Shown here: in pieces, positions 19,962 through 28,787 of the stretch
Layout: each line of letters opens with the position of its first letter
Position numbering within the stretch: position 1 is the first letter of the stretch
Assembly (NCBI RefSeq): GCF_030065675.1
Contig: NZ_JASJDK010000010.1
Span: 1 to 64,000, forward strand
Length of the DNA stretch: 64,000 nucleotides
From: Mastigocoleus sp. MO_188.B34
GTDB taxonomy: Bacteria; Cyanobacteriota; Cyanobacteriia; Cyanobacteriales; Nostocaceae
Reading direction: 5' to 3'
Notes under the pieces: model-generated
Told to the model about the DNA's origin: nothing
Databases searched by the model: none
What the model saw: only the letters and a program-made list of their open reading frames with translations
Position numbers and translations under genes: made by a program

Positions 19962-20450
19962 TTAGCAATTTTGCTCGCAAGCACCAATACTTACCCAAGT
20001 ACTAGAACCATCAGCCCAAAATTCTTTTTTCCAAATTGGAGCATTATGCTTGAGAGTATCGATCGCATAACGACAGGCTTCAAAGGCTTCAGAACGATGG
20101 GGACAGCCAATAGCAACTAGTACACTAATTTCACCTATTTGCAAACGTCCTATCCGGTGTTGAATAACTATTCGCTTAACATCAGTCCATTGTTGTCGGA
20201 TATGAGCAGCAATCTGATAAAAAATTTGTAACGCCATTGGTTCATAAGCCTGATACTCTAGCGCAATAACGGCTTTACCATCAGTCTGATTGCGAACCAT
20301 ACCACTCATCATGACTACAGCACCATTAGCATGGTCATCAGCTTTGATATAAGCTTCATCTGGTGACAATGGCGCAAAGCTAATACCGAAGCTATCTTCA
20401 GCATTTGGTTTAATAGAGGTACTTCCGGGATTTTTGAAAATTAGATCCAT
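19962..20450 (-). CDS. moaE: molybdopterin synthase catalytic subunit MoaE
   Basis: MoaE transfers sulfur from thiocarboxylated MoaD to cyclic pyranopterin monophosphate in molybdenum cofactor synthesis. The 162-residue protein has the conserved LEYQAYEPMA segment, IQHRIGRLQIGE and RYAIDTLKHNAPIWKKE with lysines K134 and K141 at the seven-residue spacing of the active-site lysines. No moaD or other moa gene is in the window. The ATG at 20450 has no strong Shine-Dalgarno sequence. Confidence 0.94.
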   Translation of the reverse strand: MDLIFKNPGSTSIKPNAEDSFGISFAPLSPDEAYIKADDHANGAVVMMSGMVRNQTDGKAVIALEYQAYEPMALQIFYQIAAHIRQQWTDVKRIVIQHRIGRLQIGEISVLVAIGCPHRSEAFEACRYAIDTLKHNAPIWKKEFWADGSSTWVSIGACEQNC

Positions 20451-21479: not shown

Positions 21480-24400
21480 ATGAACTCTCTATTGTCTAAA
21501 AAAGAGTTAGCAAGGATTGAGGCATTGTATCAATATCGAATTCTTGATACTTCTCCAGAAGAAGAATTTGATGATTTGGCTTTTTTAGCGGCGCAAGTTT
21601 GCCAAACACCAATAGCACTGATTAATCTGATTGACATCAACCGCCAGTGGTTCAAAGCTAAAGTAGGTTTAGATGTGGAAGAAATGCCCCGAAGTATGGG
21701 ATTTTGTCCTTTGTGTATAGAACAAAATGATGTTCTAATTATCCCCGACACTTTAGCTGACGAGCGATTTGCGAATTCCCCTGTAGTTCAATCTTATCCT
21801 TTTGCTAGATTTTATGCTGGCGTACCTCTAATTACTTACCAGGGACATGACATTGGAACCTTGTGTGTTGTTGACACTGAGCCAAGAGAGATTAGCGAGA
21901 AACAAATCAAATCACTACAAGCTATCAGTCGTCAGGTGATTAAACAATTAGAAATTAAAAGAAATTTATCTGAACTAGTAGATATAAAAAAAGAATACCA
22001 ACAAGCGCAGGTAGCACTAAGAGATAGTCAAGGTATTATTAATAGCTTTTTTGAGAGTGCCCCAATGATGATGGGGATAATTGAAATTGTTGATGATGAT
22101 ATTTTGCATATTTCTGGTAATGCTGCTGCTGCAGAATTATTTGAGATGACCCCGGAAGAAATGGGGAATCGCTTACTTAGTGAAATGAACCTACCACAAC
22201 AATATTTACAAGTTTGGGTTCAAAGATATTTAGAAAGTAGTAATGAAAATTTACCCCTTACCTTTGAAGATTCCTATGATAAACCTACGGAAAAAATATG
22301 GCTCAAAATAACAGTTTCGCCAATTCCTTGCGATAATAAACGTCAAAGATTTGCTTATTTTGTTGAAGATATTACCGAGCCCAAACGGGTAGAATCAGAG
22401 CGGTTACAGTTATTAGTTAACGAACAAGCTGCACGAAATAGAATTACAAATATTTTTGAAAGTATTACCGATGGTTTTGTTGCATTAGACCGTCAATGGT
22501 GTTTTACCTATGTTAATCAACAAGCAGAATTACTTTTACAAAGAACAAGAAAACAACTTTTAGGAAAGAGTATCTGGGAGGAATTTCCCGAATCATTACT
22601 ATCTAGGTTTTACGAAGAATATCACCATGCACTATCAGCACAAGTCAGTGTTAAATTTGAGGAGTTCTATGCTCCACTAAATATATGGTTTTCCGTACAT
22701 GCTTATCCATCTAAAGAAGGATTATCAATTTATTTTCAAGATATTACTGAAAGGAAAAATTACGAAGAAAATTTACGCTGGAAAGAAGCTTTATTACGTT
22801 CGATGAACAGTGTGTCACCACTTGCTTTTTATGTGGTCGATCATACGACAGAAAATATTTTATTTGCAAATGAACGTTTCCGAGAACTTTGGGGGATTGA
22901 AGAACTCAAAGAAGTAATGGAAAGGAATATCTTAAAGCATGCAGATGTGATGGAAGCATGCCAAAAATCAATGGGAATTATTCCATTTGATACTTGTTTG
23001 CCAGAATCAACAGAAAAATGTATCTGTGAAGATGAAATATTGTTACCTGATGGTCGAACAATTCGACGTTTTTCTCGACAGATTTTAAATGATGGATTAG
23101 ATTTCGGGCGTTTGTATATTTTAGAAGATATTACAGCACGTAAACAGGTAGAACAAAAAATCAGAGAACAAGCTGCATTATTAGATTTAACTACAGATGC
23201 AATTGTTTTGAGAGATTTATATAACAATATTTTACTTTGGAATAAGAGTGCCGAAAAACTTTATGGGTGGAAAGAAGAAGAAGTTATTGGCAAAAATGCT
23301 AATCGATTATTAAAAACAGAATTTAAACATTCAGAAGAAATTTTAAATACCGTACTAGAAAAAGGGATTTGGCGGGGAGAATTAAAAAAAATTAGTAAAT
23401 TTGGTAAGGAAATTATTGTTGATAGTTGTTGGACATTGGTAAAAGATGAAAACTTCAAACCAAAGTCTATTATGGTGGTTGATACTGATATTACTCAGAA
23501 AAAACAACTAGAAACCCAATTTCTACGAGCTCAGCGAATGGAAAGTATTGGGACTTTAGCTAGTGGTATTGCTCACGATTTAAATAATGTACTTTCTCCA
23601 ATCTTGATGTCAGCACAGCTATTGAAGCTTAAATCTCAAGATGAAAGTATGACTGAAATGTTATCAATCGTTGAAAAAAATGCCAAGCGTGGTGCAAACT
23701 TAGTCAAACAGGTACTTTCCTATGCAAGAGGGATAGAAGGCGATCGCACATTATTGCAGATGAAGCATTTGATTTTGGAAATGCAGCAAATTATAGATCA
23801 GACTTTTCCCAAATCAATTCGGACAGAAATCGATATTCAGCCTGATTTATGGGATGTTTATGGGGACAATACCCAAATTCATCAGGTACTAATGAATTTA
23901 TGTCTCAATGCTCGCGATGCAATTTTAGAAGATGGAACCCTAAGGATATCAGTTGAGAATATTTTTATCGATGAAAATTACGCTCAAATGAACTTGGAAG
24001 CAAAGGTTGGTTCTTATGTGCTTCTCAAGGTTGAGGATACTGGGGTTGGTATTCCAAATGATTTATTAGGAAGAATTTTTGAACCATTTTTCACCACCAA
24101 AGAATTCGGTCAGGGTACCGGATTGGGACTTTCAACTGTGATGGGTATTATTAAAGGTCATGGTGGTTTCATCAGCGTTTCTAGTCGTGTAGGTCAAGAA
24201 ACAAGTTTTCATGTCTATTTACCAGCAAGTAATGTTTCCCTGGAACAATTGGTAGAAGATATTGCAGCTACTCCTTCGGGTTGTGGAGAATTGATTTTGG
24301 TAGTTGATGATGAACCAGCAATTAGAGAAATTACTAAAAATTCTTTGGAACATCATAATTATCAAGTTATTACTGCTAGTGATGGAATAGAAGCAGTTGC

Positions 24401-24653
24401 TATATATGCTCAGTATAAAAATAAAATCAGTGCTGCCATCATTGATATGATGATGCCAAATATGGATGGAGCAACAACTATTAGTACCCTAAGGAAAATG
24501 AATCCTCAGGTGCGAATTGTTGCGGTGAGTGGTTTAATGAATAGTGAAAATCTACCGGGTAAAAATACAGGCAATGCTGTAACTTTTCTTCAGAAACCTT
24601 ATACGACTCAAGCATTACTACAAAAACTTCATAAAGTTTTGCCTCAAAACTAA
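21480..24653 (+). CDS. hybrid sensor histidine kinase, GAF-PAS(x4)-HisKA-HATPase-REC
   Basis: A 1057-residue soluble kinase. A GAF domain (about 25-165; ALINLIDINRQWFKA, no bilin Cys-His) is followed by four PAS-like domains (about 185-305, 320-430, 435-555, 565-680), an NtrB-like HisKA with H699 in GIAHDLNNVLSPILM, a HATPase (N-box NLCLNARDAI, DTGVGIPNDLLG, GTGLGLSTVMG) and a C-terminal receiver (about 940-1055; VVDDEPAIRE, AAIIDMMMPNMDG, LQKPYT). The GAF is closely related to that of the kinase at 846-2969, so these are paralogues. ATG at 21480 follows a TTG codon and an AGGA. Phosphate probably moves intramolecularly to the attached receiver. Confidence 0.94.
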   Translation: MNSLLSKKELARIEALYQYRILDTSPEEEFDDLAFLAAQVCQTPIALINLIDINRQWFKAKVGLDVEEMPRSMGFCPLCIEQNDVLIIPDTLADERFANSPVVQSYPFARFYAGVPLITYQGHDIGTLCVVDTEPREISEKQIKSLQAISRQVIKQLEIKRNLSELVDIKKEYQQAQVALRDSQGIINSFFESAPMMMGIIEIVDDDILHISGNAAAAELFEMTPEEMGNRLLSEMNLPQQYLQVWVQRYLESSNENLPLTFEDSYDKPTEKIWLKITVSPIPCDNKRQRFAYFVEDITEPKRVESERLQLLVNEQAARNRITNIFESITDGFVALDRQWCFTYVNQQAELLLQRTRKQLLGKSIWEEFPESLLSRFYEEYHHALSAQVSVKFEEFYAPLNIWFSVHAYPSKEGLSIYFQDITERKNYEENLRWKEALLRSMNSVSPLAFYVVDHTTENILFANERFRELWGIEELKEVMERNILKHADVMEACQKSMGIIPFDTCLPESTEKCICEDEILLPDGRTIRRFSRQILNDGLDFGRLYILEDITARKQVEQKIREQAALLDLTTDAIVLRDLYNNILLWNKSAEKLYGWKEEEVIGKNANRLLKTEFKHSEEILNTVLEKGIWRGELKKISKFGKEIIVDSCWTLVKDENFKPKSIMVVDTDITQKKQLETQFLRAQRMESIGTLASGIAHDLNNVLSPILMSAQLLKLKSQDESMTEMLSIVEKNAKRGANLVKQVLSYARGIEGDRTLLQMKHLILEMQQIIDQTFPKSIRTEIDIQPDLWDVYGDNTQIHQVLMNLCLNARDAILEDGTLRISVENIFIDENYAQMNLEAKVGSYVLLKVEDTGVGIPNDLLGRIFEPFFTTKEFGQGTGLGLSTVMGIIKGHGGFISVSSRVGQETSFHVYLPASNVSLEQLVEDIAATPSGCGELILVVDDEPAIREITKNSLEHHNYQVITASDGIEAVAIYAQYKNKISAAIIDMMMPNMDGATTISTLRKMNPQVRIVAVSGLMNSENLPGKNTGNAVTFLQKPYTTQALLQKLHKVLPQN

Positions 24654-24693
24654 TCTAAGTATGTTAAGAAGAAAAATCATAACTAGTTTGGAA

Positions 24694-24717
24694 TAGCGCT
24701 TTAGCGCTAAAGCGCTA
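24694..24717. repeat. perfect 24-bp palindrome
   Basis: TAGCGCTTTAGCGCTAAAGCGCTA is a perfect palindrome just after the GAF-PAS4 kinase, followed by CTACGAGCC. Related sequence (GTGCTTTAGCGCATAAAA, CGTAGTAG...CTACTACG) recurs at 37402-37500, so it is probably a dispersed element. The rest of the spacer up to 25221 holds degenerate CTAAGTTTTTGAATC-like repeats. Confidence 0.75.
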
Positions 24718-25221
24718 CTACGAGCCAAATACAGATATTTTATATTTATTTATTACATAGGTTACTTTTTTCTCGCCTACTTGCTTAAGTTTGTAAATCC
24801 TAAGTTTTTTGAATCCTAAGTTCTTTATCTCTAAGTTTTTGATTTCCAAGCTGTTTAAATTTGGGTTATTGAATTTGAGTTACTGAATTTGAGGTTATGT
24901 CATTTGAAGGTATATGATTTTAAATATTTGAAACTCAAATGTTTAAGTCTCAAGCTGTTTCCTTCGCATCAGACCACATAAATTAGATTCAGAAATTATG
25001 TTGTAATTTTTACAAGGTAAAACTTAAAGAGAACATACTAATAAGGAGTTGGTATGTTTTATGCACCAAATATTTTCATTCAGAGAAACCACATGTTTGT
25101 CTTAATGAATAAGATGATATGTATAAATAATTATTAAAAAATATAAAAAAGTTAATATAAATAGAATGAGAGTATTTTGCTTAAGTTGTGTTTCTTATAT
25201 TTTGCTCCCAATTCTTTTTAT

Positions 25222-28137
25222 ATGAATAATTTAATTTTAGTTGCTGATGATGATGTTTTAACAAGAATACATCTACGCGAGCTACTAGAGTATGCAGGTT
25301 ATCAAGTAGTAGAAGCTAATGATGGTGAGCAAGCCTTAGTTATTTATAATCAATTAAAACCCGATCTAATTTTATTGGATGCGCTCATGCCAGTGATGGA
25401 TGGCTTAACTTGTTGTGAGCGACTACATAATCTTCCAGGGGGAGCAAATACCCCTATGCTAATTATAACAGCAATGTATGACGAAAAATCTGTAGAAAAA
25501 GCTTTTGCTGTTGGGGCTACAGATTATATTACCAAGCCAATTCACTGGTCAGTACTGCGTCAGCGAGTTCGCCGTTTATTAGATGCAAGTCTAATGATGC
25601 AAGAATTACGACAACAAACCCAGCAAGCTAAAGCGCGGGAAGTTAAGCTAAAAATGGCTTTATCTGCTGCATCTATGGGAACCTGGGATTGGGATATCCT
25701 CCGTAATAAGATTATCTGGTCAGGTCACAGAGAAGCTTTATCTGGTTTAGAACAAGGTACTTTTGATGGCTCTTACGAAACTTTTTTATGCTGTATTTAT
25801 CCTGAAGATCGCGAACGAGTCAACGGTGCAATTCGTCGAGCAATAGAAAAGGGTACCGATTACGATCTGGAATATCGTATGGTTTTGCCGGATGGTAATA
25901 TTCGTTGGGTATTCAGTAAAGGGGTAGTATTTCGCGATCGCTTGGGTGTAGCAGAACGAATGTCTGGGGTAGATGTAGATATTACCGTTCGCAAACAAGC
26001 TGAATCAGCTTTAGAAGCATATGCAAATCGACAAGCACTTTTGGCTGAGTTAAGTCAAATGGCGTTGGCTGGAGTAGAATTAGGTGCTCTCATGCAGCAA
26101 GCGACTAAAATAGTAGCTCAATGCTTGAATGTTAAGTATTGTCAAGTATTGGAATTGCTTGATGATAAAAGTGCTTTTATTTTACGAGCCGGTGTGGGTT
26201 GGGATAAAGGGGTTGTAGGTCACACAAGAATCAAAAATGAACAGGAATCTCAACCTGGGTATACTTTATCCAGTGAAGAAGTAGTAATTAGTGAAGACAT
26301 TAGTAGGGAAGTACGATTTACAATTCCACAATTGCTTGTTGAGCATCAAGTTACTAGTAGTATATGTGTGGCAATTAAAAGTAGGGGAATTCCCTTTGGT
26401 GTTTTAGGAACATATACATCGGAAAGCCGTAGCTTTAGCAAAGATGATATTTATTTCTTACAAGCAACTGCAAATTTATTAGCAACAGCAATAGAACGCA
26501 AAGGTACGGAAGAAAAATTGCGTCAAAGTGAAAGACGTTTTCAAATAATTGCTCGTGCGACTAATGATGCGGTTTGGGATTGGGATTTGCAGACCAATCA
26601 AATTTCTTGGAATGAAAGCGTACAAAAGATGTTTGGCTATTCACCCGAACAATTAGAAGGTGATGCTGACTTGTGGTATGCACATATCCACCCGGAAGAT
26701 AGAAACAAAATAATTCGCGATATTTATGCTTTTGTTGATAGCGAGCAACAGGATTGGTCAAATGAATATCGTTTTCGTCGCGCAGATGGTTCCTATGCTT
26801 ATATTTTTGATCGGGGTTATGTTGTTCGCGATCGCAACGGTGAACCTTTGCGTATGATTGGAGCCATGATGGACATTGGCGATCGCAAACTGATTCAAGA
26901 GGAATTACAGCGTCAAAATTTACGTTCAAAATTGTTTGCAAACGTCACTTTAAAAATTCGTCAGTCCTTACAAGTAGATGAAATTTTACAAACTACAGTA
27001 ACAGAGGTACAAAAATTACTTTATGCCGATAGAGTATTGATTTTACGTTTACTTAGCGATAATTCAATTTTGGTAGTCAAGGAAGCCGTAGTTCCTGGTT
27101 TACCGGTGGTATTAGATCAAGATATCAATGACCCCTGTTTTGGCGAAAAGTATATTGATAAATATAGTCAAGGGCGAATAAGTGCAATTGCAAATATAGA
27201 AAAATCAGATATCAAACCATGTCATGTCAAATTTTTGCAGCAGTTTGGTGTCAAAGCAAATTTAGTAGTACCAATACTTTTACCCGATGGAATTTGGGGT
27301 TTACTAATTGCTCATCAATGTGCAAATACTCGTGAATGGACTGACTGGGAAACAGAACTCCTACGTCAGCTTGCAGACCAAATCGGGATAGCTATTTCCC
27401 AGGCTAAATTACTCGAGCAAGAAACCCGACAACGTCAAGAACTCGCACGTTCAAACGAAGAATTACAGCAATTTGCTTTCATTGCTTCCCACGATTTGCA
27501 AGAACCACTCCGAAAAATCAAAGCTTTTGGCGATCGCTTGCAAGTAAGTTGTCGTGAATCCCTTTCTCCCCAAGGATTAGATTATTTACAAAGAATGCAA
27601 AATGCTGCTGGGAGAATGCAAAACTTAATCGAAGATTTGTTAGATCTATCGCGTATCACTACAAGAGCACAACCTTTTATTGCAGTAGATTTAACTCAAA
27701 TTGTTGAAGGAGTTTTATCGGATTTAGAAATTAGGATTCAACAGACCCAAGCAAAGATAGAGATTGGAAAATTAAGCACAATTAATGCAGATCCTTTACA
27801 AATTCGTCAATTACTACAAAATTTGATTGGTAATGCTTTAAAATTTCATCGTGATTCCGTTCCACCTTTAATCAATATATATTCCCAAGAGATAGAAACC
27901 GAAGAAGATTTACGTTGGTGTGAAATTGTTGTTAAAGATAATGGAATTGGTTTTAACGAAAAATATCTCGACCGAATTTTTAATGTGTTTCAACGTTTGC
28001 ACGGTCGCAGTGAATATGAAGGTACGGGAATGGGTTTAGCTATTTGTCGGAAAATCGTCGAACGCCATAAGGGTAAGATTACCGCCAAAAGCGAACTAGG
28101 AAAAGGAACGAGTTTTATTGTGACGTTACCGCTTTGA
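25222..28137 (+). CDS. hybrid kinase with DXCF-type cyanobacteriochrome GAF (REC-PAS-GAF-PAS-GAF-HisKA-HATPase)
   Basis: A 971-residue soluble kinase. An N-terminal receiver (about 4-120; VADDDVLTRIH, LILLDALMPVMDG, TKPIHW) precedes PAS 1 (about 145-260), GAF 1 (about 270-435), PAS 2 (about 450-560), GAF 2 (about 575-730), a phytochrome-type HisKA with H757 in ASHDLQEPLRKI, and a HATPase (NLIGNALKFH, GTGMGLAICRK). GAF 2 has cyanobacteriochrome features: DPCF with C639, and C667-H668 in IKPCHVKFLQQFGVKANLVV, plus IWGLLIAHQC. The two cysteines are 28 residues apart, as in DXCF photoreceptors. It should bind a bilin and photoswitch between a short- and a longer-wavelength state. GAF 1 lacks these cysteines. 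ATG at 25222 chosen over a TTG 15 codons upstream. Confidence 0.92.
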   Translation: MNNLILVADDDVLTRIHLRELLEYAGYQVVEANDGEQALVIYNQLKPDLILLDALMPVMDGLTCCERLHNLPGGANTPMLIITAMYDEKSVEKAFAVGATDYITKPIHWSVLRQRVRRLLDASLMMQELRQQTQQAKAREVKLKMALSAASMGTWDWDILRNKIIWSGHREALSGLEQGTFDGSYETFLCCIYPEDRERVNGAIRRAIEKGTDYDLEYRMVLPDGNIRWVFSKGVVFRDRLGVAERMSGVDVDITVRKQAESALEAYANRQALLAELSQMALAGVELGALMQQATKIVAQCLNVKYCQVLELLDDKSAFILRAGVGWDKGVVGHTRIKNEQESQPGYTLSSEEVVISEDISREVRFTIPQLLVEHQVTSSICVAIKSRGIPFGVLGTYTSESRSFSKDDIYFLQATANLLATAIERKGTEEKLRQSERRFQIIARATNDAVWDWDLQTNQISWNESVQKMFGYSPEQLEGDADLWYAHIHPEDRNKIIRDIYAFVDSEQQDWSNEYRFRRADGSYAYIFDRGYVVRDRNGEPLRMIGAMMDIGDRKLIQEELQRQNLRSKLFANVTLKIRQSLQVDEILQTTVTEVQKLLYADRVLILRLLSDNSILVVKEAVVPGLPVVLDQDINDPCFGEKYIDKYSQGRISAIANIEKSDIKPCHVKFLQQFGVKANLVVPILLPDGIWGLLIAHQCANTREWTDWETELLRQLADQIGIAISQAKLLEQETRQRQELARSNEELQQFAFIASHDLQEPLRKIKAFGDRLQVSCRESLSPQGLDYLQRMQNAAGRMQNLIEDLLDLSRITTRAQPFIAVDLTQIVEGVLSDLEIRIQQTQAKIEIGKLSTINADPLQIRQLLQNLIGNALKFHRDSVPPLINIYSQEIETEEDLRWCEIVVKDNGIGFNEKYLDRIFNVFQRLHGRSEYEGTGMGLAICRKIVERHKGKITAKSELGKGTSFIVTLPL

Positions 28138-28268
28138 TTGGTGATTGGGAAAGTGTGGGAAGTGTGGGAGGCTTGGAAAGTACTGTAAGTTTAGGAATTA
28201 GGTATTGAGAAATAACATAATGAGAAATAACTCCTGACTTCTGACTCCTTACTCCTTACTCCTTACCC

Positions 28269-28787
28269 ATGACCAATTCCCACTTCTACTATTTCGCTTA
28301 CGGTTCCTGCATGTGTCCTGTGGATCTAAAAAGGACAATGGGAGAAAAAATACATCCTTATGTGGTGGGTACGGGAATTCTGAAAAATTATAGATTGGGA
28401 TTTTACCGTTATTCTCCAACCCGTAAATGTGGTGTACTTGATGTAGTTCCAGATATAAACAGTACGGTTCATGGAGTACTTTACCATTTACCCCAAAGAT
28501 TGAGCGTTCGCTTGGATCGACGGGAAGGTTCTCCCCATGCTTATAAACAAGAATTTGTAGATATTTGCTTGTCAGAAAATACTTCAGAAAAACTCTACCG
28601 TCAGGTTCGTACTTACGTTGTAGTTAACAAATCACCAACGGAAGTTGCTCCTGATGATACCTATTTTAATGTTGTATTGCGTGGTGCTCTCACCTGTGGA
28701 TTACCAGAGGAATATTGCTGGAATTTGTTTACTCACATGCACCAATTGCAACGGTGTAATAAAAAGGGAACAGGGAACGGGGAATAG
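28269..28787 (+). CDS. gamma-glutamylcyclotransferase-fold protein
   Basis: A 172-residue protein with the GGCT/AIG2-like fold: YYFAYGSCMCPVDL near the start (the YGS phosphate-type loop), RLGFYRYSP, GVLYHLP, and DRREGSPHAYKQEFV, where the Glu of REG is in the expected catalytic acid position. Family members cyclise gamma-glutamyl amines or act on related peptides; the substrate here cannot be told. The ATG at 28269 has no Shine-Dalgarno sequence. A decayed copy of its 3' third lies directly downstream. Confidence 0.85.
   Translation: MTNSHFYYFAYGSCMCPVDLKRTMGEKIHPYVVGTGILKNYRLGFYRYSPTRKCGVLDVVPDINSTVHGVLYHLPQRLSVRLDRREGSPHAYKQEFVDICLSENTSEKLYRQVRTYVVVNKSPTEVAPDDTYFNVVLRGALTCGLPEEYCWNLFTHMHQLQRCNKKGTGNGE

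Follow-up and report, generated by a model that had tools for sequence, protein, structure and literature searches.

A predicted two-cysteine cyanobacteriochrome kinase in Mastigocoleus sp. MO_188.B34 and the sensor states of its orthologues

The stretch of DNA analysed here (the window: 64,000 nucleotides, positions 1 to 64,000 of contig NZ_JASJDK010000010.1 of the cyanobacterium Mastigocoleus sp. MO_188.B34, RefSeq assembly GCF_030065675.1) encodes a sensor histidine kinase which an earlier reading of the letters alone, here called the original prediction, had taken for a light sensor of the two-cysteine (DXCF) cyanobacteriochrome type. We compared the protein, its second GAF domain and its neighbouring genes with relatives from other genomes and with solved structures. 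Counts given for orthologues refer to 80 distinct cores, merged from 104 candidates, that are at least 45% identical to the window protein (our query) in the GAF domain and at least 55% identical in the kinase; L090 (Microcoleus FACHB-1515) and the split locus L093 were left out of this set.

The sensor kinase and its domains

The gene and its parts, with the evidence for each in brackets, are as follows.

25222..28137, + strand: REC-PAS-GAF-PAS-GAF-HisKA-HATPase sensor kinase of 971 amino acids (open reading frame from an ATG; Pfam)
25234..25572, + strand: N-terminal receiver (REC), residues 5-117 (Pfam; D9, D10, D53, T83 and K105 present)
25651..26022, + strand: PAS 1, residues 144-267 (phmmer stretch matching the FixL PAS; PAS_3 in Pfam, in two stretches)
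26083..26496, + strand: GAF1, residues 288-425 (Pfam; bilin cysteines not in the expected places)
26599..26865, + strand: PAS 2, residues 460-548 (Pfam, best PAS_3 stretch)
26974..27396, + strand: GAF2, residues 585-725, predicted DXCF cyanobacteriochrome domain (Pfam, phmmer, Foldseek, VIA-align)
27130..27141, + strand: DPCF motif, residues 637-640, with the second cysteine, C639 (motif and TePixJ alignment)
27220..27225, + strand: canonical bilin-binding Cys-His, C667-H668 (motif and TePixJ alignment)
27259..27261, + strand: N680, where RcaE and nine RcaE-like cores have Lys (alignment)
27463..27663, + strand: HisKA, residues 748-814, phospho-acceptor H757 (Pfam; His in 80/80 cores)
27790..28134, + strand: HATPase_c, residues 857-971 (Pfam)

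The Pfam matches bear out the predicted order REC-PAS-GAF-PAS-GAF ahead of the kinase; an alternative, longer in-frame start is the TTG at 25177. The protein has the marks of a histidine kinase (H757, N871 and a DNGIGF motif), with both the acceptor His and the Asn present in all 80 cores. Its sole receiver is N-terminal and the HATPase domain reaches residue 971 of 971, leaving no receiver after the kinase, so that the term 'hybrid kinase' used in the original prediction fits loosely: a receiver is there, but not the C-terminal one that the term implies. The receiver residues D9, D10, D53, T83 and K105 are retained in 66-67 of the 69 orthologue cores that have a REC. A Pfam scan of the protein found no PHY domain, and HisKA directly follows GAF2. 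The cysteines of GAF1 are C301, C307 and C382, none of which stands in a DXCF or Cys-His context, just as had been foreseen. Scans of positions 24500-28500 gave 12 promoter-like signals (mean of shuffled sequences 13.9, standard deviation 3.9) and 4 terminator-like signals (mean 2.5, standard deviation 1.4), neither count being clearly above the shuffles.

Cysteines, fold and placement of the second GAF domain

In GAF2, the residues D637-P638-C639-F640 and the pair C667-H668, 28 residues past C639, are as originally read, and the conserved segments VKANLVVP and IWGLLIAHQC are both found there. A phmmer alignment of GAF2 with TePixJ (3vv4), the check that the original prediction had proposed, sets DPCF on DPCF and C667 on the cysteine of the TePixJ Cys-His without a gap between them: C639 thus sits in the DXCF position and 28 residues is indeed the TePixJ spacing. 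Among the orthologues, the spacing is exactly 28 in 64/64 two-cysteine cores, and since this class was defined by possession of both cysteines, with spacing no part of the definition, the motif arrangement goes beyond chance.

An AlphaFold2 model of GAF2 was built from 55 window and locus sequences (mean predicted local distance difference test score, pLDDT, 87.0; predicted template modelling score, pTM, 0.84). The top solved matches of this model in Foldseek are the cyanobacteriochromes PPHK, RcaE, AnPixJ and TePixJ, and with VIA-align it superposes on PPHK (6oaq) with Z 26.9 and a root-mean-square deviation (rmsd) of 1.5 over 172 residues, and on TePixJ (4glq) with Z 22.8 and rmsd 2.1 over 149. 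Phytochrome GAF domains come almost as high in the structural list, at Z of about 22-23; the fold alone thus cannot single out the DXCF type, and it is the aligned cysteines that do so.

By sequence, the best match of GAF2 to a solved structure is RcaE (169 bits), followed by PPHK (150) and TePixJ (108). A tree of 135 GAF domains, made by a quick method and rooted at the midpoint, places GAF2 in a 94-row clade (support 100 in the Shimodaira-Hasegawa-like approximate likelihood ratio test, SH-aLRT) that includes RcaE and excludes TePixJ, which lies on a long branch. The other GAF domains of the window genome that entered the tree fall outside this clade. The alignment kept domains covering most of the GAF model, which left out those on the window genome's contigs C154 and C127, and domains under nine name patterns, either close copies of the query or divergent GAFs, had been set aside beforehand. 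When the seven motif columns were removed from a set of 50 rows, GAF2 and RcaE again fell together, in a 47-row clade with support of 100/99. The earliest-branching rows of that clade all have a cysteine at the position of the DXCF one (DPCF, DNCF and, once, DTCL); the inner forks are weakly supported. These placements assign GAF2, as a DXCF domain, to the RcaE-containing lineage; it does not belong to that of TePixJ in the strict sense of grouping with it in the tree. TePixJ as nearest kin is ruled out by the phmmer score and the GAF trees alike.

Sequence likeness speaks for reading GAF2 as a protochromic green/red sensor like RcaE, its best-matching characterised domain and a member of the same clade. 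We take the protochromic triad of RcaE to be Glu, Leu and Lys. These positions map to P638, H668 and N680 in GAF2, which thus keeps none of the residues of a green/red (RcaE/CcaS) domain, and C639 is present. We tried the VKAN stretch as keeper of the RcaE lysine and rejected it: that lysine aligns with position 680, an Asn in the query. Moreover, the genome already has a separate RcaE-like protein (contig C154; motifs EEVF, ECLVEF and KAKL). The green/red reading of GAF2 is, we judge, highly improbable. M. testarum BC008, according to the available excerpts of PMC9415938, has RcaE together with RfpA, and green/red sensing is therefore covered elsewhere in the genus.

Several further frames in the genome resemble GAF2. 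At E <= 0.001 the whole genome yields 64 matches, the query counted, and long frames with at least three cyanobacteriochrome-like GAFs occur among them on contigs C26, C67, C133, C106 and C135. A frame of 1821 amino acids on contig C140 (L121:170-5632, - strand) carries eight tandem GAFs, each with DPCF and Cys-Tyr, and by these motifs is an eight-sensor DXCF cyanobacteriochrome. A frame of 181 amino acids on contig C127 consists almost entirely of a single GAF, which carries DECF and Cys-His, and the RcaE-like protein on C154 has a repetitive Lys/Asp/Ser-rich insert within its GAF domain.

Gene neighbourhood and sensor states of the orthologues

Two neighbours in the window recur in the relatives of the sensor kinase.

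21480..24653, + strand: hybrid kinase A, the upstream neighbour, with GAF and PAS domains, HisKA, HATPase and a C-terminal REC (Pfam; synteny, frequent in relatives)
19962..20450, - strand: moaE (Pfam; flanks the cluster in 33/53 named loci)

The search for named loci kept the best 80 of 229. The top 53 of these (L041-L093) are relatives from cyanobacteria, 51-96% identical in the best segment and from genera that we take to be mostly Nostocales; the nearest is Mastigocoleus testarum BC008, at 96%. The remaining 27 are distant kinases, mostly non-cyanobacterial. Most of the 53 loci have the same order, with genes for a small receiver protein and then kinase B (REC-PAS-HK-REC) after the sensor kinase, and often hybrid kinase A upstream. 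M. testarum BC008 has the locus on each of two contigs (L041 and L042); a same-genus assembly (G001) of 12.7 Mb has 38% contamination, so that the two may stem from two strains in one assembly.

We counted these partners around the 80 distinct cores, on the same strand and within 3.5 kb, using cores with a right flank of at least 1,400 bp for the downstream genes. The small receiver protein, or regulator, follows 50/57 two-cysteine, 7/7 cysteine-free and 5/9 RcaE-like cores, in agreement with tblastn, and kinase B follows 52/57 (51 by tblastn, one being a partial match at a locus end), 7/7 and 5/9, respectively. With a left flank of at least 3,000 bp, a gene of the kinase A type stands upstream of 30/42 two-cysteine, 1/4 cysteine-free and 0/5 RcaE-like cores. 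The Calothrix copy of the regulator (L043) has as its best match an unnamed receiver protein (5te9, 143 bits), followed by RcpA (1k68, 125 bits), Rcp1 (1jlk, 121) and RcpB (115); by these scores the regulator is an Rcp-type protein, kin of the phytochrome response regulators RcpA, Rcp1 and RcpB.

Neither the regulator nor kinase B follows the sensor kinase in the window or in M. testarum, where a gamma-glutamylcyclotransferase-like gene stands instead. In the window genome the two are found together on another contig (C183:23019-25386), each 72% identical to its Calothrix copy; the cluster is split, with these genes away from the sensor kinase. L053, L058 and L064 are also without regulator and kinase B nearby, the flank of L064 being only 2,304 bp.

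The cores fall into three classes by their cysteines: 64 have both C639 and C667, nine have C667 without C639 and seven have neither, counts that are no census because every set was selected for similarity to the query; none of the 80 has C639 without C667. Position 680 is Asn in 63 of the 64 two-cysteine cores, and position 668 is His in 40 of them and Tyr in 24. The nine cores without C639 have an RcaE-like pocket, equal or close to that of RcaE itself: Lys at 680 in 9/9, either V or Y as residue 639, one of L, M and F as residue 668 and mostly E or D at 638 (E in six, D in two, G in one). L090, from outside this set, reads NEVF/CL/AK and is followed by a small receiver protein and kinase B.

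All seven cysteine-free cores retain the REC, the kinase His, the regulator and kinase B. Their existence would allow that the window protein itself has lost light sensing and serves as a redox or ligand sensor with a leftover bilin-like pocket. This we consider very unlikely, given that both the window protein and its 96% identical M. testarum relative keep D637, C639, F640, C667, H668 and the spacing of 28. In the GAF tree, the cysteine-free cores form two groups (L017/L018 and L034/L083/L084/L085/L092), and because the forks between these are weak, a single loss of the cysteines is possible.

Shared neighbourhoods argue that some of the RcaE-like cores are true orthologues. L170 and L189 are flanked by moaE and, on the opposite side, by kinase B, as are the two-cysteine L181 and L185, with a single gene separating moaE from the sensor in L189. 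L189 and L181 belong to the same GTDB family (f15). In L088, from Coleofasciculus, the sensor kinase begins with a query-type receiver and is followed by kinase B. Against simple retuning in place stand L171 and L188, which lack both partners in their vicinity, and the remaining four RcaE-like cores (L172 and L173, two copies each), which have just one of the two; exchange of GAF domains between kinases is a possible alternative. Clade tests were run on 36 of the 80 cores, with 14 further GAFs in the GAF tree. At least two changes of sensor state are needed on the GAF tree and at least three on the kinase tree. Neither tree rejects a single green/red clade (P values of the approximately unbiased test, p-AU, 0.209 for the GAF tree and 0.216 for the kinase tree), so that several green/red origins are not established. 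Rooting with TePixJ and PPHK, on which the direction of change depends, suggests that the two-cysteine state is ancestral.

Taken together, these comparisons sketch a locus conserved in gene order (sensor kinase, then Rcp-type regulator, then kinase B, with moaE often near) in which a DXCF sensor would have been retuned in place to a protochromic green/red one between one and three times and elsewhere would have lost both cysteines at least once, the partners being kept. We regard the case for this history as evenly balanced. In print, a search that covered few subscription journals turned up one paper that names Mastigocoleus together with cyanobacteriochromes and no matching description, which is weak support for novelty. 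On its own the window protein is an ordinary member of a large, known cyanobacterial family; the retuned and 'blind' orthologues, whose colours are predicted from sequence only, are the interesting part. If the account is right, one kinase chassis supplies natural versions of both colour classes together with bilin-free controls, a clean comparison in which the same kinase, regulator and partner kinase are joined to a two-cysteine, an RcaE-like or a cysteine-free sensor. It could then be tested with natural proteins which few residues convert a two-cysteine into a protochromic green/red sensor, and what a photoreceptor kinase does once blind.

Proposed mechanism and known systems

The window genome encodes three bilin reductases, a tandem pair on contig C40 and a PcyA homologue (C9:13628-14290; 425 bits to the solved PcyA 2g18), and as PcyA is encoded, the means to make phycocyanobilin (PCB) are present. 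The original reading of the protein as a light-sensing kinase is supported by the alignment with the TePixJ motifs, the GAF model, the genomic PcyA, the intact receiver and kinase and the Rcp-type neighbour in most of the orthologues that could be checked. These observations are best explained by a two-cysteine cyanobacteriochrome kinase that senses blue light, in our view very probably the correct reading.

In DXCF domains, as described in the available excerpts of PMC5578081 and PMC11284453, PCB is bound via the canonical cysteine and the second cysteine adds to C10 of the bilin, shifting its absorption to the blue. By analogy, apo-GAF2 would take up PcyA-made PCB and bind it covalently via C667, and in the 15Z dark state C639 would be added to C10 to give a blue-absorbing form. 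Blue light would then isomerise the 15,16 bond and C639 would be released, giving a form that absorbs at longer wavelength. Relayed to the adjoining HisKA, the change would alter phosphorylation of H757, probably with a single-domain response regulator of the Rcp type as target. Through the N-terminal REC, whose phosphorylation residues are all present, a second kinase may modulate the output, the most likely phosphate source being the upstream hybrid kinase A. Motifs, domains, alignment, gene neighbours and the genomic PcyA are observed; bilin attachment, colours, partners and direction of control are all predictions.

The colour of the lit form would be orange if the bilin stays PCB and green if it is isomerised to phycoviolobilin (PVB). 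In acid-denatured protein the two are told apart by 662 nm for the Z form of PCB and 592 nm for PVB (PMC11284453). A PVB-based blue/green cycle like that of TePixJ, a special case of the two-cysteine explanation, fits the TePixJ-like arrangement of DPCF and Cys-His and the fact that DXCF domains usually isomerise PCB to PVB (PMC5578081 and PMC11284453, in the same excerpts). On the other side, GAF2 belongs to the RcaE group and not to that of TePixJ, and a blue/orange two-cysteine sensor, Oscil6304_2705, is known (excerpts of PMC10296107). A PVB cycle is quite conceivable, if somewhat short of an even chance. Thus the DXCF type of the original prediction stands, with C639 and C667 on the TePixJ motifs, but a PVB chromophore is not assured because GAF2 groups with RcaE, TePixJ not being its closest kin; for the same reason we slightly prefer PCB and an orange lit form.

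Several points weigh against the explanation as a whole. The choice between PCB and PVB is made on weak grounds, and PMC11284453, in the part available, supposes further, as yet unidentified residues behind the isomerisation. With both cysteines lost and the kinase kept in 7/80 cores, this kinase family can do without light sensing. Finally, the presumed output genes, regulator and kinase B, are not adjacent to the sensor kinase in the window genome.

Among known systems, the GAF domain of TePixJ (3vv4, 4glq) is like GAF2 in having DPCF and Cys-His in the same places, 28 residues apart, on the same fold; it lies outside the query's clade, however, and the PDB lists its protein as a methyl-accepting chemotaxis protein, whereas ours is a kinase. 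RcaE (8k9o, 7ckv) shares the well-supported clade and gives the best sequence match, but is without the DXCF cysteine and has E, L and K where the query has P638, H668 and N680. The dual sensor kinase PPHK of Leptolyngbya JSC-1 (6oap, 6oaq, 6ob8), the top structural match, combines an N-terminal REC with a cyanobacteriochrome GAF and, on the alignment and the titles of 6oap and 6oaq, is a precedent for both in one kinase; it has DQYF in place of DPCF, and its REC lies directly before the GAF where the query has PAS-GAF-PAS between them. Two more systems can be likened by description. Oscil6304_2705, a blue/orange two-cysteine cyanobacteriochrome, has a blue-absorbing dark state and releases its cysteine on photoconversion (PMC10296107, in part). 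DpxA of Fremyella diplosiphon, according to excerpts of PMC4937213, is a cyanobacteriochrome kinase switching between yellow (568 nm) and teal (494 nm) that acts beside RcaE, and by analogy a role in colour acclimation beside RcaE is possible for the kinase described here.

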